A stretch of 22,036 nt of DNA, from IMG/VR virus record IMGVR_UViG_3300028384_000749, positions 1 through 22,036 of that record. The stretch is one strand, 5' to 3'. A model generated the notes under the pieces. The model had not been told where the DNA came from and did not search any database. It saw only the letters and a program-made list of their open reading frames with translations. The DNA is from a virus. Numbering within the stretch: the stretch's first letter is position 1; every line of letters starts with the position of its first letter. This document shows positions 7 to 20,161 of this stretch, piece after piece. The position numbers and the translations under genes are program-made.

Positions 7-2376
7 TTAGGCTGTGCCTCCTTGAACAGTGCCATTATTAGTAAATGTGACATTGGATAGACCACGGATGTACTTACCTGCTGCGCCGCCGCCAGAACCT
101 GACGAGCCACCAGAGCCGCCTGAGCCGCCATTGTGATAGTTGGTCACGACAGCACGACATTGGAACATCGGTAATTCACCCATTGCACACGATCCACAAT
201 GACTACAGCAACCGCCTGAGCAATAACAACCGCCACACTCTGAGCAACCGCCTACAGTGCCACCACATCCAGTAGTACGACCCTGACCGCCATTGCCGCC
301 ATTGCCTCCAGAGCCACCTGCTCCACCTCCACCACCGCCACCACGGATAGTTCCGTTGTTGATGATAGTTACATTGGCTACGTTACAACGAAGGGCATCG
401 CCCCCTGCTCCGCCACCAGCAGACCCACCAGCACCAGTGATAGTGCCGTTGTTAGTTAGGGTGATGTCACCTGAGCCACCTGAGTTCAGTTCAAGAGCAA
501 ACTCAGATGCGTTGGTCGTACCTAGTTCGACACCAGAGTTAATGATGATTTCTTTTGGGTAGTTCACGCCCCAGTCAGAGCCAAACAATGTGCTGGCATC
601 TTGTGTGGTAGCACCACTTGCGAAAGTGTACTTGAAGCCTTTTGCTTGGCTTCGGTAGTCACTGAAATCAACAGCACCTGATGTGGGTACGGTTGATGCT
701 AAGTTTGTGGCGTTGTTGTTAGCCGCTTTGGAACGCACATTCGTACCGCCACGGTAGTAATCAGAGATAGACACAGCACCTGAGCCGCCAAACTCAGTGC
801 GGATGTCACTGAAGGATACAGTTGTTGCGCCAATAGCCATGATTTCCCCAGTATCGAGTTCGATAGACCACTTGCTAGAGCCAAACAGAATAGCGTTACC
901 GTTTGTGTCTAGGTTGCCACCTAATTGTGGGGTTGTGTCATCTACAAGTTCGCTTGAGATGTTGTCGATCTGGGTCTGAATAGAGGAAGTAACACCATCC
1001 ACATAGTTAAGTTCTGTGGTTGTGGCTGTGACACCATCCATGATGTTAAGTTCTGCTGTGGTAGCAGTCACACCGTCCATGATGTTTAACTCAGATGCAG
1101 TCGCAGTGACCCCATCAAGTGTGTTTAATTCAGCCGTAGTAGCAGTTACGCCATCCATGATATTCAGTTCAGATGCTGTAGCAGTTACACCATCGAGGAT
1201 ATTGAGTTCTGCTGTAGAAGCAGTAACACCATCGAGAATGTTTAATTCTGTTGCAGTAGCCGTTACGCCATCAAGGATGTTCAATTCTGCTGTCGTAGAG
1301 GTAATCCCATCCAGAGTATTGATCTCAGTGGCTGTAGCAGTCACTCCAGTCAAATCTGTGGGTGCGATGCTAATGTTTGCAGACCCATCAAATGACTGAC
1401 CAGCAATATTCCGTGCTGTTGCCAAAGTTGTGGCTGTAGCCGCATTACCAGAGATGTCACTAGAGGTCAGAGCCACAGTGCCAGTCGCATCTGGAAGTGT
1501 AATGGTACGGTCTGCAGTTGGGTCGGTAACTGTTAGCGTAGTTTCGTTAGCGTCAGCCGTAGCACCTTCAAAGACTAAGTTAGCATTGTTCAACTGCAAG
1601 TTGCCTGAAAGACCGCCACCAGTGGTCGGCAGGAAGCCTGAACCTGCTGTAACGCCCTGCTCCCAAGCACTTCCCGTATACACTTTGAGTGTTCCTGAAG
1701 TCTGATTGAAAAATAGGTCCCCAGTATCAAGGCTATCTGAAGGATCAGTTGCACCAGTACGGTACAGAGCCTGAAAGTCAGACAAACTGGATGCTGCACT
1801 TGTGGCTGATGTCGATGCTTCAGATGCTTTTGTTGATGCAGTTGTTGCTGAAGCAGATGCTTTTGCGCTGTAGTGTTTGGCTGAGTATTCAGAACCATCT
1901 ACTGTGCTGTCTTCTGCCTTTGTAGCCCATTCTTTAGCCGCACCAGTGCTGTTTGTAACTCCAGTGCCGCCAACAGCGTGTGCTTTGGCTGAGTACCCTT
2001 CTCCAGATACAGCCTCACCGTCTGTCTTTTGTGCCCATGCTTCGGCTTCATCTTCTGATGCTTGTGCATCTGTAGCACTTGATGATGCTTCAGAGGCTTT
2101 TGTAGTCGCAGTTGTGGCGGAAGATGCCGCAGTATCTTTGTGGGTCGATGCAGTGTTGCGATAACTTAAGGCGAGATCACGAGCCGCTTCACTGGCAGTT
2201 TTCGCTGTCTCACTTTGAGTTTTCGCAGTCTCACTTGCTGTTTGGGCAGTCTCTGCAGCAACTTGTGCTGCTTCTGCTGCAGTTTGAGCAGCCTCTGCTG
2301 CTGTAACGCTGGTATCGATACTGTTTTCTACAGTTGCGGTAGTCCCAGTGTTACTAAAGAAACTTGTGTTCGCCAT
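7..2376 (-). CDS. Large repetitive tail fibre / adhesin protein
   Basis: A 789-residue protein, probably a host-recognition tail fibre. Residues about 25-75 are Ala/Thr/Glu-rich and heptad-like, suggesting a trimeric coiled coil. They are followed by fibre-type repeats containing WAxK and YSAKxY motifs (about 110-180). The middle holds about nine copies of a 14-residue unit centred on ELNILDGVTAT. The C-terminal ~140 residues are very rich in glycine (GGGGGGG, GGSGG runs), with about ten cysteines packed into roughly 40 residues. Known family context: glycine-rich tips occur in phage adhesins such as the gp38 type. That this tip binds the receptor is inference. It starts 4 bases after the adaptor stop codon, so the two are probably co-transcribed. 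The stop at 9-7 is inside the window, so the gene is complete. Confidence 0.85.
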   Translation of the reverse strand: MANTSFFSNTGTTATVENSIDTSVTAAEAAQTAAEAAQVAAETAQTASETAKTQSETAKTASEAARDLALSYRNTASTHKDTAASSATTATTKASEASSSATDAQASEDEAEAWAQKTDGEAVSGEGYSAKAHAVGGTGVTNSTGAAKEWATKAEDSTVDGSEYSAKHYSAKASASATTASTKASEASTSATSAASSLSDFQALYRTGATDPSDSLDTGDLFFNQTSGTLKVYTGSAWEQGVTAGSGFLPTTGGGLSGNLQLNNANLVFEGATADANETTLTVTDPTADRTITLPDATGTVALTSSDISGNAATATTLATARNIAGQSFDGSANISIAPTDLTGVTATATEINTLDGITSTTAELNILDGVTATATELNILDGVTASTAELNILDGVTATASELNIMDGVTATTAELNTLDGVTATASELNIMDGVTATTAELNIMDGVTATTTELNYVDGVTSSIQTQIDNISSELVDDTTPQLGGNLDTNGNAILFGSSKWSIELDTGEIMAIGATTVSFSDIRTEFGGSGAVSISDYYRGGTNVRSKAANNNATNLASTVPTSGAVDFSDYRSQAKGFKYTFASGATTQDASTLFGSDWGVNYPKEIIINSGVELGTTNASEFALELNSGGSGDITLTNNGTITGAGGSAGGGAGGDALRCNVANVTIINNGTIRGGGGGGGAGGSGGNGGNGGQGRTTGCGGTVGGCSECGGCYCSGGCCSHCGSCAMGELPMFQCRAVVTNYHNGGSGGSGGSSGSGGGAAGKYIRGLSNVTFTNNGTVQGGTA
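985..1350 (-). repeat. Tandem 42-bp repeats in the tail fibre gene
   Basis: About nine imperfect 42-bp units encode 14-residue repeats with the core [AST]ELN(I/T/Y)(L/M/V)DGVTAT. On the plus strand they recur as GTNACNCCATC(C/A)A(T/G)GAT-like blocks. Copies differ mainly at synonymous and Ile/Thr or Leu/Met positions. They probably form a repetitive rod segment, and copy number could change by recombination. One related unit (TELSVMDGDTA) also occurs in the collar fibre at 18590-19564. Confidence 0.85.
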
Positions 2377-3019: not shown

Positions 3020-3445
3020 ATGTTAAAGAAAGTTGTATTTGCAGTAATGTCAGTATTGCTTACTGCGTCACATACAGTTGCACATGAAGCACCTAAGACT
3101 GATGCTGCTAAACAAGAGTACATAGATAACTTTGTGAAGGTATTTGAAGTAAATGCACGTTACTTCAATGATGATGATCCTGGTGTGCAATATGCAGTTA
3201 AGAATATTGGTACTGAAACCATCATTGATTTAGAAGTAACGTTTTACTTCCTCGACAAGTCTGGCAATAGATTTGGTGAAGAAAACTTCCACCCTCTATT
3301 GATAGGGTATAAAAGAACAGAACCACTTAAACCAAACTACACTTGGAGGAGCAGCGACATTACGTACAGTTCCTTTGGAAATCTAGGTGATGAGTGGTCT
3401 GGTAAAGTTGAGTATGAAATCAGTGACATAAAGTTTGCAGAGTAA
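3020..3445 (+). CDS. Small exported protein, probable beta-sandwich domain
   Basis: A 141-residue protein on the strand opposite to its neighbours. An N-terminal signal peptide is visible (MLKKVVFAVMSVLLTASHTVA, cleavage likely near AHE), so it should enter the periplasm. There are no cysteines. The mature part holds alternating strands such as VQYAVKNIGTETIIDLEVTFYFLDKSGN, reminiscent of FxLYD-type or other immunoglobulin-like periplasmic domains in which a conserved NxG turn precedes a strand and a 'D..G' turn. This resemblance is by eye only. The start is supported by GAGGG at 3009-3013, six bases before the ATG. It ends two bases from the convergent stop of the small basic protein at 3448. 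Function unknown; an accessory (moron-like) gene is the best inference. Confidence 0.8.
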   Translation: MLKKVVFAVMSVLLTASHTVAHEAPKTDAAKQEYIDNFVKVFEVNARYFNDDDPGVQYAVKNIGTETIIDLEVTFYFLDKSGNRFGEENFHPLLIGYKRTEPLKPNYTWRSSDITYSSFGNLGDEWSGKVEYEISDIKFAE

Positions 3446-4168: not shown

Positions 4169-4207
4169 GATTGTGTCTCCTTTTGTATGATTGACGGAGA
4201 AGTTGAG

Positions 4208-4432
4208 ATGGAACTAAAAGTCCCTAAATCCCTAATTGTTGCTCTATGGGTGATTGGTGTTGGCCTTGTGCTGAATGGTGTTCAGCCGTTTCTTGGGACA
4301 CCTGCTAATGCTTCTGGTGGTATCCAAAAAATGGCGATTTGTGACATGAAAGGTAGATGTGCTGACATGGTAAATACTGGTAGCACCATCCAAAATGGTA
4401 TGACATTAGGCGTGTTTAACTTCGGCCGTTAA
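4208..4432 (+). CDS. Small membrane-anchored or exported protein
   Basis: A 74-residue protein. The start at 4208 is chosen over the ATG at 4187 because GGAG at 4196-4199 lies at normal distance and the product then begins MELKVPK, a typical basic N-region. Residues about 8-30 are strongly hydrophobic (SLIVALWVIGVGLVLNGVQ), followed by TPANA, so this is either a signal peptide cut after ANA or a single membrane anchor. The exposed tail contains the motif MAICDMKGRCADM with two cysteines. It sits alone on the plus strand between the 3845-4168 gene and the capsid gene. Function unknown; one of six small exported proteins in this window. Confidence 0.78.
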   Translation: MELKVPKSLIVALWVIGVGLVLNGVQPFLGTPANASGGIQKMAICDMKGRCADMVNTGSTIQNGMTLGVFNFGR

Positions 4433-4501: not shown

Positions 4502-5914
4502 TTATGAAAGGCCGTTGATTTGTGCTGATGCAGAGTGGTTGAGGTGCATCAAACCACCTTCGTAAACTACGAAATGCTTATCGCTATCGCCTGTCTTTGA
4601 CAGCAGGGTGCGAGAAGTTGGACGTAGTACGGCTGAACGCCACATTGTTGGGTCCAGCAGGAAGGCGTGTGTGGTCATCTGGTGACGGTTCAGAACAACC
4701 TTCAGTGTACCGTATGGATTAACCAGCACATCAACTGCGTTGGTTAATGTGGTTACACCGTCGTTGAAGTTCCGTGTACGGCCAGCAGAGCCTGTGAAAC
4801 CAGCAACGATTTCAGCATCGGCTGGCTTAATCATGAAGATTGATGGGTCACCACCTGCGTTGTAACAGGCTTCGTGAGCATCAAGCATCTTTGCTTCTGT
4901 AAGTGCGTCAGTAGCGTTTGAACCAGCGTCAATTGTGTTACCTGCCACAATCAACTGTGATGCTGAATCCATTTCTCGTGCTACTGAGGATGAACCTGTG
5001 ACGCCAGCATTGTCTTGACCGACATATGCAAATTCAATGTCACGCTTCAGTTCCTTTAGGGCCTTGCCCAGTTGGTCATTTGTATTCGTCTGTGGTCGTT
5101 AAGCACAGACCGCCTTTCGGCTGCTCATACTTTCGATATGAGATTAGACTATATCATTGCTAATTTTTTGTGATGTCACTGCAAAAGCAAGAGTAGTGAT
5201 TATCTTCTGTTTCTTGATCAAATGCTCTGATGAGTATGCAGTATCGCTTTGCAGTCATACTCATTTGAAGATTAACTACACCGTCTTCGATTTTTCTTGT
5301 TTCAAGAATGACACCATTTCTTGCTGTATCAATGCAAACTTGAAGATTTTCTTCCTTCTCATTGCTACTTTTGTAACTAAGTTCGTTTGCTATGGCTTGT
5401 GAAGACCACAACAGCATGATGAAAAGTATCGTGTGTTTCATATAATTAGCACCCTGCGCTTCCACCCACTTGGGTGTACTCCTGTCGGATAGTCGTTGAA
5501 CCTTCCCCTTGCGAGGCTTGGCTGCTGATTACCATATCATAATTGACTTAGGCTTCCCAGCAATTCACAGGGTTTATACTACGCTACCAATTTTAACGCA
5601 GTCTCTTTTGCGCGACCGTAGGTGCGGATGGCGTCTGCCGTCGCGCTGACTTGGAAAGATTTGCTCAGGATCTGAGTGTTCCCAGTACGCATTGTTGTTG
5701 CAGTAATTGAACCAATTGTAGGGTCTGCTCCTTCAACTGATTTATTATCTGCGGCAGCGGCCAAAGTATCTTCCATGTATTCGTATACACGAGCATGGAC
5801 TTTCTGCGGCTTAATCATTGTGTACATGGGACAATCTGTAGGTGAAATATCAACGATGAGGTCCTGTACGTCCTCTGCTGCACCCACAGTATCGTATGAG
5901 GTAAAAGTTGCCAT
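4502..5914 (-). CDS. Major capsid protein, interrupted by a group I intron
   Basis: Exon 1 is 5914-5596 and exon 2 is 5076-4502 (minus strand), giving a 297-residue protein after splicing. It resembles the SU10/DUF5309 major capsid family, which builds the icosahedral shell. Family signatures are the N-terminal VEGADPTIGSITATTMR region, the QILSKSFQVSATADAIRTYGRAKET helix, and KELKRDIEFAYVGQDN just after the splice junction. Splicing joins T|AC to make Tyr107, giving ETAYQLGKALKELKRD, which is what the family has here. Unspliced mRNA would end at a TAG after residue 111. An in-frame ATG at 4972 exists but would yield only the C-terminal half and has no reason to be used. The gene follows the scaffold gene by 29 bases. 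Confidence 0.9.
5077..5595 (-). ncRNA. Group I self-splicing intron (IA-like, T4 td-like)
   Basis: The conserved group I elements are all readable on the minus strand. P: AATTGCTGGGAAGCC. Q: AATCAGCAGCCAAGCC. R: GTTCAACGACTATCC. S: GATATAGTCTAATC. Pairings: P1, exon ACTGCGT (5602-5596) with guide GCGTAGT, ending in the canonical U·G at the splice site; P3, 5573-5566 with 5458-5451 (8 bp); P4, 5563-5558 with 5527-5522; P7, 5494-5489 with 5152-5147; P7.2, 5476-5463; P8, GCTAATT (5450-5444) with AATTAGC (5165-5159); P9, 5142-5124 with a GAAA loop; P9.1, 5121-5112 with a GAAA loop; P9.2, 5110-5104 with 5094-5088; P10, TTGGT (5590-5586) with exon ACCAA (5076-5072). The last intron base is G. The 3' end resembles that of the T4 td intron. 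Confidence 0.93.
5160..5441 (-). CDS. Intron-encoded small exported cysteine protein
   Basis: A 93-residue protein occupying the P8 loop of the capsid intron. The ATG at 5441 is preferred over an upstream in-frame ATG at 5465. It is preceded by AGGG at 5455-5452, and it gives a clean signal peptide (MKHTILFIMLLWSSQAIA, cut before NE). The mature part has four cysteines (LQVC, KRYC, HYSC, CFC), suggesting two disulphides in the periplasm. No LAGLIDADG, GIY-YIG, HNH or other endonuclease motif is visible. The start lies three bases after the 5' strand of P8 and the stop TAG overlaps its 3' strand, so the gene fills the loop exactly. It runs on the same strand as the capsid gene. Function unknown. 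Confidence 0.8.
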   Translation of the reverse strand: MKHTILFIMLLWSSQAIANELSYKSSNEKEENLQVCIDTARNGVILETRKIEDGVVNLQMSMTAKRYCILIRAFDQETEDNHYSCFCSDITKN

Positions 5915-6952: not shown

Positions 6953-7222
6953 CTATTCCTCTTGATTGTTGTCATCGGCCTTTGCTTCGATTTGTTCCTT
7001 CACGGCAACACGCTGACGTAGTGTGCTGATGATTTCGACTAAGGCTCTGTAGTGGTGGTAAGACTGCTCTCTGATGTCCACTTGCTCAGGCTTTGAGTTC
7101 ACGAACTGCTGAAAAGCACCGTCTACCAGTTGATTGATTGTGTTATTGAATATGTCGTTATCAAGCAGGAATGAGGCATCCTCACCCTGCTGGATTAACG
7201 AAAGTTCAGTATCTTTATCCAA
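6953..7222 (-). CDS. Small acidic helical protein between portal and scaffold
   Basis: An 89-residue protein starting with TTG at 7222. The rare start is well supported: AGGAG lies at normal distance and no ATG is available upstream. The sequence (LSLIQQGEDASFLLDNDIFNNTINQLVDGAFQQF and later LVEIISTLRQRVAVKEQI) looks alpha-helical and is acidic at the C-terminus. Its stop lies four bases before the chosen scaffold start, so the two genes are linked. No membrane segment or catalytic motif is seen. A virion assembly role is inferred from position only. Confidence 0.75.
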   Translation of the reverse strand: MDKDTELSLIQQGEDASFLLDNDIFNNTINQLVDGAFQQFVNSKPEQVDIREQSYHHYRALVEIISTLRQRVAVKEQIEAKADDNNQEE

Positions 7223-7282
7223 ACTTCTCTCCTATTTCTGATACACTTTCCTAATGCCCAATCGCCAGTTAAGGAGACTTAG

Positions 7283-7537
7283 ATGAAGAAAGTGTTGATT
7301 GTTGTTAGTGTTGGTTTGATGACCATGACATCTTCAGCCTTTGCAGATGACTGTGATAAAGTGCGATCAAGCGGCTTAAGGCTTACTCACGAGATCTTTT
7401 TATGGAAAAAAGTACTTGGTGAATCTGTTAAAGCCGAAAAAGACGATCAGGCTGATATTGCTCGCTTCGCTCTCGAGGAGTCTTTGGATTTGGCTGCCAA
7501 ATACGCCTCCATATATAATGCGTTTTGCAAAGACTAG
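7283..7537 (+). CDS. Small exported helical two-cysteine protein
   Basis: An 84-residue protein with a textbook signal peptide (MKKVLIVVSVGLMTMTSSAFA, cut before DD). The mature ~63 residues look mostly helical, with one cysteine near each end (DDCDK and NAFCKD), which could staple the ends together in the periplasm. AAGGAG at 7271-7276, six bases before the ATG, gives strong translation initiation. It is alone on the plus strand between the portal gene and the 6953-7222 gene. Its TAG stop and the portal TAG stop share the same CTAG, so the genes converge with overlapping stop codons. Function unknown. Confidence 0.82.
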   Translation: MKKVLIVVSVGLMTMTSSAFADDCDKVRSSGLRLTHEIFLWKKVLGESVKAEKDDQADIARFALEESLDLAAKYASIYNAFCKD

Positions 7538-9561
7538 CCAGTGGGACTTGCGATCCCACGGACTTCACTTGTGTTTTGGAGAACCTCTAGTTCGGCTTCG
7601 TCAATTCGCTGCTTATGCTGGAATTGAGCCTCTTTGAGGTCCATTGTGTCAGACTGAATTGCGTGGCTGGCTTGTGCTTTCTCAGCATCAATCTCCAGTT
7701 TGGCTGCTGCCATCTGTGCATCTGTTTCTGCACGAACTTCTGCTACCCTTGTCTGGCGTTCTTGAATTTCCATCTGCTTCATAGCCATCTGCGCTTGCAT
7801 TTCCTGCATTGGGTTAGGCTGAGGTGGAGGTATCATCTCTGGAGGCGTTAGGTATTCCTCAACATTTAGGATCCCTTGTTGCTCAAGAATAGATTTCATC
7901 ATCGCATAGCGATTTTGTAGGCTGTACATAGGCTGTAAGCCCGGATCTTGGGTAAACATAGTATGCAAAGCCAAGCGTTTCTGCGCTTCTCTGTCTTGCT
8001 CACCGTAGCCAAGACGCAGTTCAACAACCACATCACGCTTTTCTTTCCATGATGTTGGGTCGATTTGTACATATGCACCTGCAATCTCGACGACTTTCTG
8101 CTGGCTCTCGTTTTCAACGACCAGCATATAAATCTCGTGGAACAGATGCTTTACAAAGGATGCGAAGTGTCTTGCGACAATTTTTTGACGCTGCTGGCTT
8201 AAGGTAGCCAGTTGTTCGACCATGGCTGCGCTATTCTGCTTTGATATAGCGTCCTTGTTCAAGCCTTGGCTTAACCTGCTAACACCTGTGTTATCTTCCA
8301 AATCCTGATCAAGTTGCTGTAGGGTCTGGAACACAAATGGGTTCAGTGGTGCCTGTGGCATTGGACTGATTGCGTCTGGTCTCGACACATTCACAAGACC
8401 GCCCACTCTGTTGTCGATCAACTCTCGAGGATTTGTGAGACCACCTTTGACGACCATATACCTTGGGTTGTTGGTGATCATTGCGTGGTCGAGGATTGAC
8501 CGAGTAAGTACCGTTCTTGCATTTTGCGTGGCGCATAGTTTGTCTGCGAAGTTAGATCCGTAGAATGAATGTGGGATTGGAAGTGGGCAGAAAGTAATAA
8601 ACGGACGTCGATTTACTTCTTCAATGTCCAGTATTGCATTACCTGCCTTGACTACACGATGAAGTTTAGCAATGCCCTCACCTTCGACATCAAGCATGAT
8701 GTAGGCTTCATAGACCATGATGTATCGCACTTGGTCTTGATAACCATGTGCACCAAAGCCTCGACCAACATCTACACCTTCATGTCGAGCCAGTATCTCA
8801 GGGTCTGTCTCCATCTCGATGTCTTCATGATCACCAATGTTGTCCAGTTCTTTGCTGTCTGGATACATTTCACGCAACTCTGACAAGGTTTTGCGTGTCC
8901 GGTGAGCACAGAATGTACTGTCTTCAAGGCTCTTACATTGTGCCTCAACAATCAGTTCCTCTGGTGGAATAGTCTCGATGACAACTTGTGAAGTGTCACG
9001 AATGACACCAACAGTACCACTAAGAAGACCCATATCATCTTCTTCACTGTCGATGAGGATTACGTCTTCTTGAGCAAGAAGCATATCAAGTTGATCTTGG
9101 TTTAGACCACTAAACTCCTCGACATTGGTTTCTTCGCTTTCCTGCCAAAATACTTTGGCTGCGCCAACTCTGGCCATGAGGCCATCGTGGATAACGCTTG
9201 AAAACACTTGGAAACCGTCATTCTGTCGGAAAAGCACATAATCTGTATACGATGAGCATACTGCAGCCGTTTGAGTGTCTTCTGGCCCCTGAGGAGCAAA
9301 CTTAACGATGCGATTACCTGCAGCGAAAGTCTCCAAGAGTGCTGCTTGCATTGAGTTAACGGCATTGTAGACGTCTTGAGAGACGTATTTGCTGTTACCG
9401 TCATGTGCAGGTTTTGGAAGTTTTGTGTTGTAGTATTCAAGAACCTTTTTGCGTTCTTTTGAAAGTTCACTGTCGTAGTAACCAACCGATAAACGGATGT
9501 TATCTTCGACAAGTTTGACGATCTCTTTGTCGTCTAACTTTCGATAGTCTTTTTCTGCCAT
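7534..9561 (-). CDS. Portal protein (head-to-tail connector)
   Basis: A 675-residue protein that forms the dodecameric ring at the capsid vertex through which DNA is packaged and ejected. It follows terL by three bases. The N-terminal region (SKYVSQDVYNAVNSMQAALLETFAAGNRIVKF) and DGLMARVGAAKVFW are typical of podovirus and P22-like portals, as is IDPTSWKEKRDVVVELRLGYG in the C-terminal half. The last ~90 residues are a long Gln/Glu/Ala-rich helix (MQAQMAMKQMEIQERQT onward), matching a barrel or coiled-coil tail. Length fits this class of portal. The stop codon overlaps that of the convergent gene at 7283. Confidence 0.88.
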   Translation of the reverse strand: MAEKDYRKLDDKEIVKLVEDNIRLSVGYYDSELSKERKKVLEYYNTKLPKPAHDGNSKYVSQDVYNAVNSMQAALLETFAAGNRIVKFAPQGPEDTQTAAVCSSYTDYVLFRQNDGFQVFSSVIHDGLMARVGAAKVFWQESEETNVEEFSGLNQDQLDMLLAQEDVILIDSEEDDMGLLSGTVGVIRDTSQVVIETIPPEELIVEAQCKSLEDSTFCAHRTRKTLSELREMYPDSKELDNIGDHEDIEMETDPEILARHEGVDVGRGFGAHGYQDQVRYIMVYEAYIMLDVEGEGIAKLHRVVKAGNAILDIEEVNRRPFITFCPLPIPHSFYGSNFADKLCATQNARTVLTRSILDHAMITNNPRYMVVKGGLTNPRELIDNRVGGLVNVSRPDAISPMPQAPLNPFVFQTLQQLDQDLEDNTGVSRLSQGLNKDAISKQNSAAMVEQLATLSQQRQKIVARHFASFVKHLFHEIYMLVVENESQQKVVEIAGAYVQIDPTSWKEKRDVVVELRLGYGEQDREAQKRLALHTMFTQDPGLQPMYSLQNRYAMMKSILEQQGILNVEEYLTPPEMIPPPQPNPMQEMQAQMAMKQMEIQERQTRVAEVRAETDAQMAAAKLEIDAEKAQASHAIQSDTMDLKEAQFQHKQRIDEAELEVLQNTSEVRGIASPTG

Positions 9562-9564
9562 AGA

Positions 9565-11136
9565 TTACACCATTTCAATAAATAGTTCGGGTGGGGTTTC
9601 GACTGGTTCCCACACGCCTTCATGGACATGATTAGCGAGTGCGAGTGACATGACGCAGTCATCAAAACAAGACGCTTCCGCCTCCATTGAGCCACTTTCT
9701 GTGACGATGTAGGTAAGCATTTCTCTGATTGTGACTTTGTCGTTAAGTTCCAATTCGCCTTCACGCATTGAGGCTCTTAATTGGTCTATTATCAACGGCT
9801 TAGTCTTCGAAGTTGTAGTAAAGCCTAACTTTACTGTCTCTCGATCTGTGATCTTATCTACCTGCACTTCTGTGTAGAAGTTGGGGTAAGCGAAGTCTTT
9901 GCCTAACCTTGTGCAGGTCAGGATGCCATGAGAGTTATTCTCAACGATGATATGCGCTTCATTGTAGTATTCACCAAGGGCATACAGAACGTCTGCAAAG
10001 TAGTCTGGGTGTATTTGACCACGCCAAGTTGCAACCTGTCTTTTCTTGCTGTCGAGCACTTGTGCAACGGAGTAGTCTCCATTTCGGACACCCATGGCAA
10101 CATCAGCCCCAATAACATAGCGTTCTCCCGGGTCATGTTTGATGTATGTGGTAAGTTCCCCTCGAGCATTATGGATGAACTCATCACCCTCTAATGCAAG
10201 GCGTTCCTCTACATCACGAGTGTCATTAAGACATTCTGATAGTTGTTCTGGGTTAAATACAGGCCGGCCTGTGGTTAAAAAGGCTTCTTCTGGCTCTGCA
10301 GGGTATTCCTGTCTGAATAGATCAATGCCATTTTGAGCAATTTTTCGACGACGGAACATTAGTTGTTCATCATCAAGATTGTACTTTTCGACTAACTCAT
10401 CTTCTTCTGGTGTACGCTCAAATGCTTCAGGAACTAATTCTCTGTAGTTTGGGTCTGTAAACCATGGAATAAACACCGGAATAAAGCCATTTGTACCCTC
10501 TACAGCACCTTTCCAGAGGTCATAGTAGATACCAGTTACACCATTGGCTGTACTTTCAACAAATACGGCTGTTCCTTTGGTATTTGGCACCGCCTGTAGC
10601 AGACCATTCCAGATGTCTGCTGCTGTATTCTTTGGCCAAAAGGCTAATTCTGATGCGTGAACGTGAGTAAGTGTTTCCCCTCGCCCAACACTGTCACCAC
10701 CTGCAGTAGCCACAATGAAACTGCTGTCTAAAACATCAAATGAGAGTTCACGTCTGGAACTGTATTTGGTGTGAGGCTTTAGAATTTCAGGGCAATGCTG
10801 ATGGAACCTCTGTGTCATATCAAACAATGCCCTTGTGCTGTCACTGTGGTGAGTAACAACCATTGCTTTCCGGGCTTTCTGTTGAGAAACAGAGAAATAC
10901 AGGTATCCGCCTGTGTAAGTAGACAAACCCTGCTGCCGAGCCTTGAGAATGATGACACGAACCTTGCCTTCGGTCTTAAGTTGCTTGCTTACAGCGTCGT
11001 CTAGGATTTGTTGGGCTGGATTGAGTTTAAATGGGGCAATTTTGCCCTCTTTAGTACGAATTTTAAGTGAAGATTGTGCGTAGAAGGGAAAGTCGGTGTA
11101 AAGACGCTTACGGACCTTCTTGAGTTTCGGGTCCAT
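9565..11136 (-). CDS. terL: Terminase large subunit
   Basis: A 523-residue DNA packaging motor. The ATPase domain has a Walker A-like ILKARQQGLS (about residues 63-72), a Walker B/catalytic segment THVHASELAFW with Glu163, and a coupling motif VFVESTANG (191-199). The C-terminal nuclease domain shows the RNase H-like acidic residues: GADVAMG (Asp345), IIVENNS (Glu399) and FDDCVMSLALA (Asp492/Asp493). It cuts concatemeric DNA and pumps it into the procapsid through the portal. The start at 11136 overlaps the terS coding region by 29 bases and is preceded by GAGGAAG, so translation is probably coupled. Nothing essential appears missing. Confidence 0.93.
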   Translation of the reverse strand: MDPKLKKVRKRLYTDFPFYAQSSLKIRTKEGKIAPFKLNPAQQILDDAVSKQLKTEGKVRVIILKARQQGLSTYTGGYLYFSVSQQKARKAMVVTHHSDSTRALFDMTQRFHQHCPEILKPHTKYSSRRELSFDVLDSSFIVATAGGDSVGRGETLTHVHASELAFWPKNTAADIWNGLLQAVPNTKGTAVFVESTANGVTGIYYDLWKGAVEGTNGFIPVFIPWFTDPNYRELVPEAFERTPEEDELVEKYNLDDEQLMFRRRKIAQNGIDLFRQEYPAEPEEAFLTTGRPVFNPEQLSECLNDTRDVEERLALEGDEFIHNARGELTTYIKHDPGERYVIGADVAMGVRNGDYSVAQVLDSKKRQVATWRGQIHPDYFADVLYALGEYYNEAHIIVENNSHGILTCTRLGKDFAYPNFYTEVQVDKITDRETVKLGFTTTSKTKPLIIDQLRASMREGELELNDKVTIREMLTYIVTESGSMEAEASCFDDCVMSLALANHVHEGVWEPVETPPELFIEMV

Positions 11137-11596
11137 CTTCCTCGTCTTCTGTAAGTAGGCTTGCTAGGAAGTCTTCTGCCTTCGCTACAGCCACTTCTGA
11201 CTTTGATACAGGTTTGCTTTTAGTAAAATCTAAAACCAAACGTGCTGCTGCAAGTCTTTCTCGGGTTTCGCCGGGTACTCGCATCACTTCCACAGCAGTT
11301 TCTAATGCTTCACGACTGTAATCGTCTTCGATGTCGTATTTGTCTGCCATGATTTTTACTACCTCTTTTGCTTCCTTCTTTGCTTTTGCACGAATTGGTT
11401 CGATTTCGTGCTTTCTGTAACCGTCTGGAACACCTTTAGGGCGTCCAGCGTTCTTCCGTGGCTTCGTAGACCACTGTTTTCTAAGTTCCCGACCCTCTGG
11501 AGTATCCATAAGGGTCGAGAAGTAATTTCGTTTTGGTGCTTTTTGAGGTTGAGACGATGTTTTGGATGATTTTGCACGTTCTTTACGCTGCTTCAT
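11108..11596 (-). CDS. terS: Terminase small subunit
   Basis: A 162-residue protein. The N-terminus is basic and disordered (KQRKERAKSSKTSSQPQKAPKRN). It is followed by GRPKGVPDGYRKHEIEPIRAKA and a helical core (ALETAVEVMRVPGETRERLAAARLVLDFTKSKP) typical of small terminases of marine podoviruses, then an acidic C-terminal tail that may contact TerL. It recognises phage DNA and delivers it to TerL. The ATG overlaps the TGA of the upstream internal virion gene by one base (TGATG). The terL start lies inside its 3' end. Confidence 0.85.
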   Translation of the reverse strand: MKQRKERAKSSKTSSQPQKAPKRNYFSTLMDTPEGRELRKQWSTKPRKNAGRPKGVPDGYRKHEIEPIRAKAKKEAKEVVKIMADKYDIEDDYSREALETAVEVMRVPGETRERLAAARLVLDFTKSKPVSKSEVAVAKAEDFLASLLTEDEEDGPETQEGP

Positions 11597-13872
11597 CAGT
11601 CTTGCCTCGTTTGCTTTCCGATACGCTCAAGATATGGCGTAAGATACTTATCGACTAAGTCTTTGCGACGAAGTTTTGCTTCGGCTTCTGCAAGGATGTC
11701 GAAAGCACGTCTATATGGCTGTGGGCCAAGGTTTCCGCCTAAATCAGCAAGTGCTTGTGATAAGATTTGTTTGTCACTGACGGCAATGCTTTTGTCGTCA
11801 TTAACAGCATCTCTTAAATCACGCAGTGCTTTCTTGTTCTTCATCTCTCCACGTCTGCGTCTGTCTTCAGTTTCTGTCAGTTCTTTACGAACTGGTTCAG
11901 CAACACGACGATCTTCCATTTGTGGGTTTTTAGCGATGAAGTCGTTAACAGCCTTGATCAGTGGCGAAAGCATATCGTTTGAGATTTTACCGCCAGTATC
12001 AATACTAATCCGATACTCTTTAATAGCCTTTACCAATGCAGGTTCAGCATTTGGCTGCCTAAGTAGATAGCGCATAACTTCAGCAACACCGCCTTTATCT
12101 AAACCAGTAGATAATTGAACGATGTCTTGAGGTGAGCCGGGTGTCGGTTCTGCACCCTGTGCGCCTTGTAGTCTGTTAAGACGTGCTTGGGAGGCTTGGT
12201 TTTCCTGTTCTCTTTCAGCCTTAGCCTGTGCTGCTAAATCTTTGAGCGTTTGTTCATCGATGCGCTGCTGGACCACAGACTGACCTGTCGGAGCAGCCAT
12301 GCCCTGCTTTTGTGCATTATCACGAACAAACTTAGCCACACGGCTGCGTCTGCCTGTAAGAGCGTCAATACCACGACCACCAAGTACGGCTGCTAACTGT
12401 GGAGCAATTGAAGTCCCACCAGTTCCATATGCAGCACCTGCGGTTGCAGCACCAATTATAGGTGACGCAAGTGTTCGCTGATTGCTGTAGCCAGTATTAG
12501 TGTCAAAAGGATTGAGAGCGTCAGTAAGACGTGAAACGCCACCTTTTAAACCGTTGTTGTGGACACGAGTAAGTTCATCAGACTTCCGCATCAAAGCCAG
12601 AAGTTGTTGACCTTCTCTTGTGTCACCGACCAGTTTTTCGACAGCATCATAGTCTTGTTTGCCGACTGTGTTCTTTGTTTTGTTCCGTGCCTTGTCAAAG
12701 CCAATCTTAGCCTGAACTTTATCCAGTCTTTGAGCCTCTGGATCAGTGTCCTTGAGTTTAAGTTGCTCTTTGAGTGCTTGGATAAGACCCTGCATTTGAC
12801 CAGTGTAATTCTTGTGTACTGCATCAATTGCTGCTCTTGCGCCTTCAGTAGAAGTTGGATCGACATCTTTGAGATTGAAACCATCATCTGCAGTCACTTG
12901 TTCTAAGTCTCGAGCAAAGTCTGCTGCTGCTTCAGGATTACTGGTTTTTTGAGGGTTGCCTGTGATTGCACCGACAGTCTCCTGTCCTGCTTTTGCAGTA
13001 CCTTTGACTGTTGCACCAGTTGAGGCACCCAACACAAAGTTATCGACAACGTCATTAACAACTTCTTCGGCTGTGAACTCACCGCCTTGAGCCGCTACAC
13101 CACCGATTTCAACACCAGACTGTGCTGCTTCTGTAATACCCTCTGTCTTTGCGCCACTCCACACTTCTTTGATGAAGCGTTTAGCAAGACCAGGATTTTT
13201 CTTGGCTAGTGTTTCAGCAATCTCACCATTAGTCATAGTGGCTACTTTGTTCTTCGGTATCAGTTTAGACGCACCAATCTTATCAAGTGCACCAACAACA
13301 ATCCCTAAAGCCACGTTTTTAGCAGCAGTGCTTTGGTCCTCTACATCAAGACCCTTTTGCTCTGCGGTCTCCGTAACTGATCCAATACCTAAGCCAACAC
13401 CAGTAGCGGTGGCTGTGGCACCAAGGCCAGCAACTGCGACTGCTGGTGCACCAAGCCATGCTGCGAGAGCAGCACCGCCAGCAATGATCGGAGTAGCACC
13501 GATTGAGGCTGCATTTTCTGCCCCACGAGTGGCAACCCATTCCATACCTTTGTCTTGGCTTAAGGCATCCATAAAGGACATATCACCTAAGGGTGATACA
13601 TAACCACCCTGCTCGATGTCTTTGTCTTGTTCAGCAACAATTCTGTTGCCCATATCAGTCAAGCCTTGGAAGTCGAAGGCAGAGCCTATCGATCGTAATG
13701 TTTGACCACCAAGACGCTGCGCTTGGTCTACTGAGTATCCAAATGCACTGTCGGTAGGTTGGTTTTGAGATTGTAATTGGCGAATTGCTTGGGCCAATCG
13801 CTTTGCATCTTCTGTGTTACCTGCAGCATCGGCTTTTCTTAGCGCATCAGAAAGTTGGTTAATGTCAGCCAT
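11596..13872 (-). CDS. Internal virion / DNA ejection protein with hydrophobic core
   Basis: A 758-residue protein. Residues about 124-166 are a long Ala/Gly/Val-rich hydrophobic stretch, able to insert into a membrane. The rest is Gln-, Ala- and charge-rich with long helical segments. Podovirus ejection proteins carry this profile: they are packed in the head and form a channel through the cell envelope at infection. Location next to the transglycosylase-bearing gene supports this. AGGAG eight bases upstream supports the start at 13872. No enzyme motif was found. The exact family is not recognised. Confidence 0.72.
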   Translation of the reverse strand: MADINQLSDALRKADAAGNTEDAKRLAQAIRQLQSQNQPTDSAFGYSVDQAQRLGGQTLRSIGSAFDFQGLTDMGNRIVAEQDKDIEQGGYVSPLGDMSFMDALSQDKGMEWVATRGAENAASIGATPIIAGGAALAAWLGAPAVAVAGLGATATATGVGLGIGSVTETAEQKGLDVEDQSTAAKNVALGIVVGALDKIGASKLIPKNKVATMTNGEIAETLAKKNPGLAKRFIKEVWSGAKTEGITEAAQSGVEIGGVAAQGGEFTAEEVVNDVVDNFVLGASTGATVKGTAKAGQETVGAITGNPQKTSNPEAAADFARDLEQVTADDGFNLKDVDPTSTEGARAAIDAVHKNYTGQMQGLIQALKEQLKLKDTDPEAQRLDKVQAKIGFDKARNKTKNTVGKQDYDAVEKLVGDTREGQQLLALMRKSDELTRVHNNGLKGGVSRLTDALNPFDTNTGYSNQRTLASPIIGAATAGAAYGTGGTSIAPQLAAVLGGRGIDALTGRRSRVAKFVRDNAQKQGMAAPTGQSVVQQRIDEQTLKDLAAQAKAEREQENQASQARLNRLQGAQGAEPTPGSPQDIVQLSTGLDKGGVAEVMRYLLRQPNAEPALVKAIKEYRISIDTGGKISNDMLSPLIKAVNDFIAKNPQMEDRRVAEPVRKELTETEDRRRRGEMKNKKALRDLRDAVNDDKSIAVSDKQILSQALADLGGNLGPQPYRRAFDILAEAEAKLRRKDLVDKYLTPYLERIGKQTRQD

Positions 13873-16676: not shown

Positions 16677-16699
16677 TTTGATGAAAAGGAGATTTGACC

Positions 16700-16954
16700 A
16701 TGAAAACAGTCTTTGCCGTTTTGGTGGCTGTACTTTGGGTATTTAATTCATATGCAGTAGATGAATATAATACTGCTGAAGAAGTACCTGTAAGTGTCTG
16801 TGAAGTTGCAGGTAAGTCAGGCGTAAAAATTAACGTCGCTGGAAAATTTCAAGATAGTTATGTTTACTGGTATTACAATGGTGCCGTTTATCAAATGGGC
16901 ACACACAAAGAGGACGGTATCTTCAGGATTGGGTGTATTAAATACAGCGAATAA
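16700..16954 (+). CDS. Small exported two-cysteine protein
   Basis: An 84-residue protein. ATG at 16700 is taken as the start because AGGAG at 16686-16690 is well placed. The signal peptide is MKTVFAVLVAVLWVFNSYA with likely cleavage before VD. The mature part looks strand-rich (VKINVAGKFQDSYVYWYYNG) and has one cysteine early (VSVCEVAG) and one late (RIGCIKYSE), a likely disulphide pair. It is the only plus-strand gene between the nozzle gene and the 16386-16664 gene, and its stop lies one base from the nozzle stop. No known family is recognised. Confidence 0.8.
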   Translation: MKTVFAVLVAVLWVFNSYAVDEYNTAEEVPVSVCEVAGKSGVKINVAGKFQDSYVYWYYNGAVYQMGTHKEDGIFRIGCIKYSE

Positions 16955-19870: not shown

Positions 19871-20161
19871 ATGCGTCTACTTATCGCCACCTTCGTAACC
19901 TTATTCACTCTCAGTTCATCAGTTACTTTTGCATACGACGAAATGAAACAAGATAGAGTACCAATCGAGCAATGTTTTAAGGCTTTCGAGAGGGGCAAGG
20001 TGATTTACGAATTTGATGACGCAATCAGACTCGAAACTTTCATAGTCTCAGCCAGTAAACTTTACTTGTGGGTTTTAAACAAATATGAACTTTCTAACAC
20101 TAAGAGATCAACTCAATTCTGTAATGTATTTGTGTCAGAGAAGTTCAATGATGTTCACTAA
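19871..20161 (+). CDS. Small exported two-cysteine protein
   Basis: A 96-residue protein with a clear signal peptide (MRLLIATFVTLFTLSSSVTFA, cut before YD). The mature part has two cysteines (IEQCFKAF and STQFCNVF), consistent with one periplasmic disulphide. A GGGA seven bases before the ATG could serve as ribosome binding site. A five-codon reading frame (MQIGT, 19851-19868) with a good AAGGG upstream ends two bases before this start and might couple translation. The gene is flanked on both sides by tandem 8-base repeats. It is another isolated plus-strand gene. No known family is recognised. Confidence 0.78.
   Translation: MRLLIATFVTLFTLSSSVTFAYDEMKQDRVPIEQCFKAFERGKVIYEFDDAIRLETFIVSASKLYLWVLNKYELSNTKRSTQFCNVFVSEKFNDVH

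Follow-up and report, generated by a model that had tools for sequence, protein, structure and literature searches.

The tail fibre encoded by the virus record IMGVR_UViG_3300028384_000749 is predicted to end in a gp38-like receptor tip, the main loop of which is probably held by several disulphides. Calculation supports the homology of this tip to free-standing proteins, its beta-helix fold, the position of the loop, hypervariability across the family, an even bias in the cysteine numbers of short loops, and a conserved cysteine core.

The window, by which we mean the whole stretch of DNA analysed, is the complete virus record of 22,036 bases. Its fibre gene, with the adhesin module fused onto its C-terminal end, runs from 7 to 2376 on the minus strand and encodes 789 amino acids in a frame that is open throughout; PHROG tail families match at residues 194-243 and 296-355, among others, and the record ends 6 bases beyond the fibre stop codon. 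The closest match of the window terminase among the named phages listed is Roseobacter phage CRP-7, at 39.5% identity, and the portal matches 303 named-phage records, with 27-30% identity among the matches listed; these weak identities place the window at a distance from every named phage compared. The DNA of window positions 7000-13800 has zero matches among named phages. In the fibre shaft, at about 965-1345 (minus strand), we observe tandem repeats of the ELNILDGVTATTA type, with matches in several viral contigs.

The window has further features away from the fibre. A group I intron at 5124-5652 on the minus strand (Rfam RF00028, 75.5 bits against a gathering threshold of 50) interrupts the gene for the major capsid protein. 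One half of that gene (5582-5914) matches SU10_MCP positions 3-106 and the other (4505-4972) positions 150-291; an ORF of 101 amino acids inside the intron (5163-5465) has no Pfam or PHROG match. Five small plus-strand ORFs lie opposite the structural genes, at 3020-3445, 4187-4432, 7283-7537, 16694-16954 and 19871-20161; several start, by eye, like signal peptides, and none matches Pfam or PHROG.

The C-terminal 277 residues of the fibre (residues 513-789, positions 10-840, minus strand) correspond to entire proteins in other viral sequences. An alignment covering the module's first 165 residues, used as a scan query, gave 90 relatives, of which 80 were retained. Additional scans, together with a profile, enlarged the family to 150 distinct members, namely the window, the named phages phiM9 and X1, and 147 members from viral contigs. 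The 150 include near-copies: among the 134 members complete at the 3' end, about 115 are clearly distinct, and 131 of the 134 are 330-480 amino acids long. Loop bounds could be scripted for 116 of these complete members, the 18 others being 16 long-loop proteins, L083 and L337. By tblastn against named phages, the C-terminal 287 residues found three records and the 165-residue part found 15, none with 80% coverage, and a pattern search of genome contigs returned 74 pattern matches and no relatives. Residues 535-698 also match positions 5-169 of the 353 in phrog_10745 (E 2.7e-19), a family whose function is not given, in a match that ends upstream of the window's cysteine cluster. A subfamily of about 454-479 amino acids (L133, L177, L205 and similar proteins) carries a domain-like insert of 160-200 residues between the glycine runs.

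For the fold, AlphaFold2 was run on an alignment (A4) of 68 sequences, consisting of the window and 67 of 70 selected relatives (L082, L144 and L148 were excluded). The resulting model of the module has a mean pLDDT of 79, a pTM of 0.76 and a confident beta-helix. Its N-terminal part, beta-helix and a short glycine extension (residues 513-678, positions 343-840, minus strand) form beta strands, with a pLDDT of 77-95 over the first 60 residues and mostly above 90 thereafter, and the closing strands of the helix (residues 764-789, positions 10-87, minus strand) are modelled at module residues 256-259, 264-268 and 271-273. The glycine-cysteine segment, module residues 179-223 and 228-245, stays below a pLDDT of 50, too low for any cysteine pairing to be read from it; the confident model with only unpaired, buried cysteines that the original prediction had named as counting against it did not arise.

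The top Foldseek rows for this model are the gp38 adhesins of phages S16 and PP01, at E-values of just 0.13 and 0.16. VIA-align gives Z 14.4 for S16 gp38 (6f45_D; 187 residues aligned, rmsd 7.7) and Z 14.2 for PP01 gp38 (9v85_A; 150 aligned, rmsd 2.3), followed by a next row at Z 7.1. For L086, a relative with longer glycine blocks, the two gp38s score Z 18.8 and 18.2, and the next row 6.0. In the model of L086, the glycine blocks at residues 241-280 and 301-330 reach a pLDDT of 86-98, with the cysteine loop at about 45-57 and most of the first 65 residues also of low confidence. The polyglycine blocks are therefore confidently modelled in L086 and of low confidence in the window, whose glycine part is short and may fold otherwise. 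A profile-profile comparison of the family with 11 T-even gp38s gave a probability of 69% (E 4.5e-5) over 128 columns. PDB sequence matches of the fibre fell mostly on its glycine-rich part and were judged to be matches of composition.

In the accessible text of its structural descriptions, gp38 is a five-ringed beta-helix, two turns of which are extended into ten polyglycine-II helices, with hypervariable loops linked to host range (PMC6851490, PMC12892980). Like S16 and PP01 gp38, the module has a beta-helix that bears glycine-rich extensions, between which lie hypervariable segments, and gp38 and the window's relatives also have in common a separate adhesin gene, often directly after a fibre-like gene. 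The window differs from gp38 and from its own relatives in that its adhesin is fused to the fibre, and its loop is much richer in cysteine than those of the 11 T-even gp38s examined (S16 included; drawn from 655 records matching S16 gp38), which hold 0-2 cysteines past the first five-glycine run and show no cluster. Pfam GP38 (PF05268) was not recovered: neither the window module nor any of three relatives matched a Pfam family at E ≤10, against 246 bits for S16 gp38 itself. The attachment domain Gp38_N (PF21721), which scores 70.5 bits in S16 gp38, has no match in the window module, and the Pfam rows on the fibre are confined to weak matches of helix-hairpin-helix and TssC families that lie outside the adhesin module. 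By its modelled fold and its layout, the module is a gp38-like adhesin that lies outside the Pfam GP38 family, and the link to polyglycine-sandwich adhesins drawn in the original prediction is supported by the fold match to the two gp38s.

The fibre contains 11 cysteines, at residues 664, 704, 711, 714, 717, 719, 723, 724, 727, 730 and 740, and residues 1-512 are free of cysteine. Cys 664 (positions 385-387, minus strand) is not part of the cluster; the other ten fall within 37 residues (704-740, positions 157-267, minus strand), between a first long polyglycine run (residues 679-699, positions 280-342, minus strand), which aligns with the polyglycine blocks of relatives, and a second run placed by the loop alignment and by block measurement (residues 749-763, positions 88-132, minus strand). 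This agrees with the polyglycine runs and roughly ten cysteines in some 40 residues that had been proposed from inspection of positions 130-420, which code for residues 653-749 and take in the cluster together with the first long run of glycines; the motif GGCSECGGCYCSGGCC quoted there is present letter for letter in the translation. Against a background of 25 cysteines in 5272 residues, counted over 18 other window proteins, the binomial probability of ten cysteines in 40 residues, multiplied by 750 positions, is about 3e-12. The cluster mixes TGT and TGC codons for cysteine, and GGC, GGT and GGA for glycine, which rules out an origin as a simple nucleotide repeat.

Across the family, the segment between the polyglycine runs, where the cluster sits, is hypervariable on a conserved framework. 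Among 167 close pairs with modules 85-99.5% identical (short-loop members minus L082; no member is this close to the window itself), the loops are less than 40% identical in 90, and in 56 of these 90 the C-terminal block is still at least 70% identical. A divergent loop beside a conserved post-loop block is the pattern expected when a receptor-binding segment varies and its scaffold stays fixed. Family hypervariability thereby backs the loop position and, with it, the placing of the cluster at a receptor-binding tip in the original prediction; instead of the tip invariant across hosts that was to count against that idea, the relatives' tips vary, as seen on contigs that carry no host assignment.

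The number of cysteines per loop bears on what the cluster does. Our main parity test used the short loops (fewer than 140 residues), which make up 91 of the 116 bounded loops and hold no cysteine in 60 cases, one in 2, two in 9, four in 11, five in 3, six in 4, eight in 1 and ten in 1. Clustered at 80% identity, they form 69 clusters, 44 without cysteine and 25 with, of which 22 have an even number and 3 an odd one. With the window removed, the count is 21 even to 3 odd (p 1.4e-4 against one half, over clusters that are not independent of one another owing to kinship), and ten other amino acids counted in the same manner are near balance or lean to odd numbers. Each cluster takes the commonest count among its members, which at 80% and 70% masks the lone cysteine of L256; clustering at 95% gives 22 even and 5 odd. 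When only loops with at least two cysteines are counted, the skew is weaker (p 0.0018 at 80% without the window) and glutamate shows a similar one (25 to 3), so little weight attaches to the count in this form. Long loops do not follow the even trend: with them included, the 42 cysteine-bearing clusters at 90% divide into 27 even and 15 odd, and those at 70% into 20 and 8, a dilution that follows from the single cysteine in 15 of the 25 bounded long loops.

The clusters with five cysteines are L095 and the pair L091 and L103; the latter two have one further cysteine in a second insert, as does L090, which has a loop of four. Close pairs, which share members, differ by two cysteines in 17 cases, by four in 1 and by six in 5, and odd differences (one in 15, three in 1, five in 1) all involve L108, L256, L095, L091 or L103. 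Even numbers are expected from disulphide pairs, and this bias, like the conserved core of four cysteines described below, lends indirect support from the sequences to the multiple disulphides of the original prediction. A different six-cysteine loop, with HCHCMGYC, occurs in L144, L145 and L148, and is the sole one of the loop types in which histidines are paired with cysteines.

In a quick tree of 84 distinct modules drawn from the 91 short-loop members, the window falls in a starred clade of seven rows (SH-aLRT 96), all with cysteine-bearing loops of 4, 4, 4, 5, 5, 8 and 10. An alignment (A7) of six of these loops, with L084 left out, reveals a core common to the window and five near kin, CxxxC...SCAMG...C, with four cysteine columns invariant in all six; in the window it reads C719-x3-C723 ... 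S-C730-A-M-G-x6-C740 (positions 157-222, minus strand). In the five near kin, the core cysteines lie in a glycine-poor stretch next to long glycine blocks. Over the whole tree, the state of having at least two cysteines requires 12 changes, at least 4 of these being forced by starred branches. Judged from these sequences, the window cluster is the densest member of a graded series and no isolated freak. A search for further CAMG-core loops found two loci, both on contigs already in the set, and a DNA pattern for the core found 24 stretches. The motif appears in an ORF in 15 of these, and just two of the 15, L352 and L355, belong to the family, again on contigs already in the set. Two other long proteins, L350 (1077 amino acids) and L359 (994 amino acids), have SHAEG repeats with ten cysteines in about 120 residues and are apparently unrelated to the adhesin family.

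The window stands apart in how its module is attached. In the other members, the module begins at most 32 residues past an upstream stop, and is therefore a separate gene, with 4 of the 150 members open at the 5' end and uninformative; the window is the sole fused case among the 150. In 134 of 149 plus-strand members, an ORF of 80 codons or more terminates nearby, most commonly overlapping the start by a single base (78 of 134); of the 134 upstream ORFs, 67 match window fibre residues 1-512. The matching upstream fibres typically end SSKWSIELDTGDNDLLFKYNGTTVFKLAS.GAVTSADDITAFGSP followed by a stop, where the window reads SSKWSIELDTGE-I-MAIGATTVSFSD. By this comparison, the window lacks the stop codon together with about 34 residues of the fibre, and two genes have merged in frame at the internal Met 513 (positions 838-840, minus strand), the point at which, by alignment and by the DNA around the start, translation of the free-standing adhesins begins. 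The post-loop block of the window, at 41 residues, is also the shortest among the 116 measured, the next being 74 (33 longer).

We propose that the adhesin consists of a short N-terminal part and a beta-helix, with glycine-rich extensions that would display the receptor loops. In the fuller relatives, these extensions are predicted to be ordered glycine blocks equivalent to the polyglycine-II sandwich of gp38. The cysteine cluster would be the main loop. Its ten cysteines are most likely joined in some five disulphides, which would hold a short glycine-rich loop in a single shape. The most probable role of this clamped loop is to bind the receptor, which we infer it touches. The fibre is synthesised in a reducing cytoplasm, so bridge formation would be expected to follow lysis.

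A metal site at the tip (zinc, copper, iron or iron-sulphur), metallothionein-like and either stabilising the loop or offering iron to a siderophore receptor, is the alternative that we find improbable. The cluster contains CxxC, CxC and CC spacings and a single histidine (SHC), a pattern that we take to resemble metal sites, and HCHC occurs in the one other loop cluster of the family mentioned above, but a tip exposed to oxygen favours disulphides. A site with four ligands would moreover favour multiples of four, and half of the even clusters (11 of 22) hold 2, 6 or 10 cysteines, which argues against metal sites and leaves the metal binding of the original prediction the less likely of its two options. 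Iron in phage tail fibres has been published, for T4 gp37 and, by prediction, for Alteromonas phage R22Y, but the iron sites in the accessible text of that report are histidine pairs, HxH (PMC11705849), and HxH is absent from the window's fibre protein as read from its translation.

Rather unlikely, though not negligible, is the alternative that the cysteines lie within or between polyglycine-II helices and staple them in place of lost glycine helices, making the cluster scaffold and not receptor loop. This idea is modelled on a proposal for the glycine-tyrosine keratin-associated protein, whose model has two disulphides, and disulphides are among the stabilisers of glycine-rich PPII bundles in the accessible part of that source (PMC8409303); the cysteine segment of the window is itself glycine-rich, and the shortness of its post-loop block fits as well. 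The near kin, however, keep their core cysteines in the glycine-poor stretch beside long glycine blocks. Such bundles, the snow-flea antifreeze protein and the keratin-associated protein model, resemble the tip in their glycine-rich helices but are not of phage origin, and the structural match to the springtail antifreeze protein is weak, at Z 2.7. Doubtful, if somewhat less so, is the view that the window gene has decayed or been misassembled, with two in-frame losses through recombination or assembly between repeats and a tip that is non-functional or misread. The window alone is fused and short of glycine-block residues, and the record stops just past the fibre stop codon; against this, the frame is open over all 789 residues, and the beta-helix and its closing strands are confidently modelled. 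Decay or misassembly in the window would be compatible with disulphides in the family at large, the cysteine loop itself being real. A gp38-like receptor tip with a disulphide-held main loop remains our preferred reading of the fibre end.

Disulphides in phage particles have precedents. In the accessible text of the reports, Agrobacterium phage Milano has a sheath, tube and baseplate, and attached spikes and fibres, with many disulphides (PMC10811340), and Agrobacterium phage 7-7-1 has a disulphide-crosslinked capsid (PMC12796354). The likeness lies in structural proteins rich in disulphides; what is proposed for the window differs in concerning a single hypervariable receptor loop. The accessible portions of the open-access literature searched describe no cysteine-rich gp38-type tip.

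In T-even phages, host range is decided by the tips of gp38. The family described here carries the gp38 fold well past the T-even phages and into many viral contigs, offering many natural loops on one scaffold, and its gp38-like reading suggests an annotation for the phrog_10745 proteins, currently of unassigned function. As a speculative extension that we hold only tentatively, and think doubtful as a whole, disulphide pairs, from none to five, may be gained and lost in this large family as an evolvable element of the receptor loop on a constant glycine scaffold, by which short loops could keep new shapes, and the loop would become competent for binding only once it is oxidised outside the host. 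The window would then be the extreme case, covalently fused so that a trimeric fibre would carry three tips, not one. If the loops are indeed held by disulphides, phages would have a knottin-like route to diversify receptor binding.
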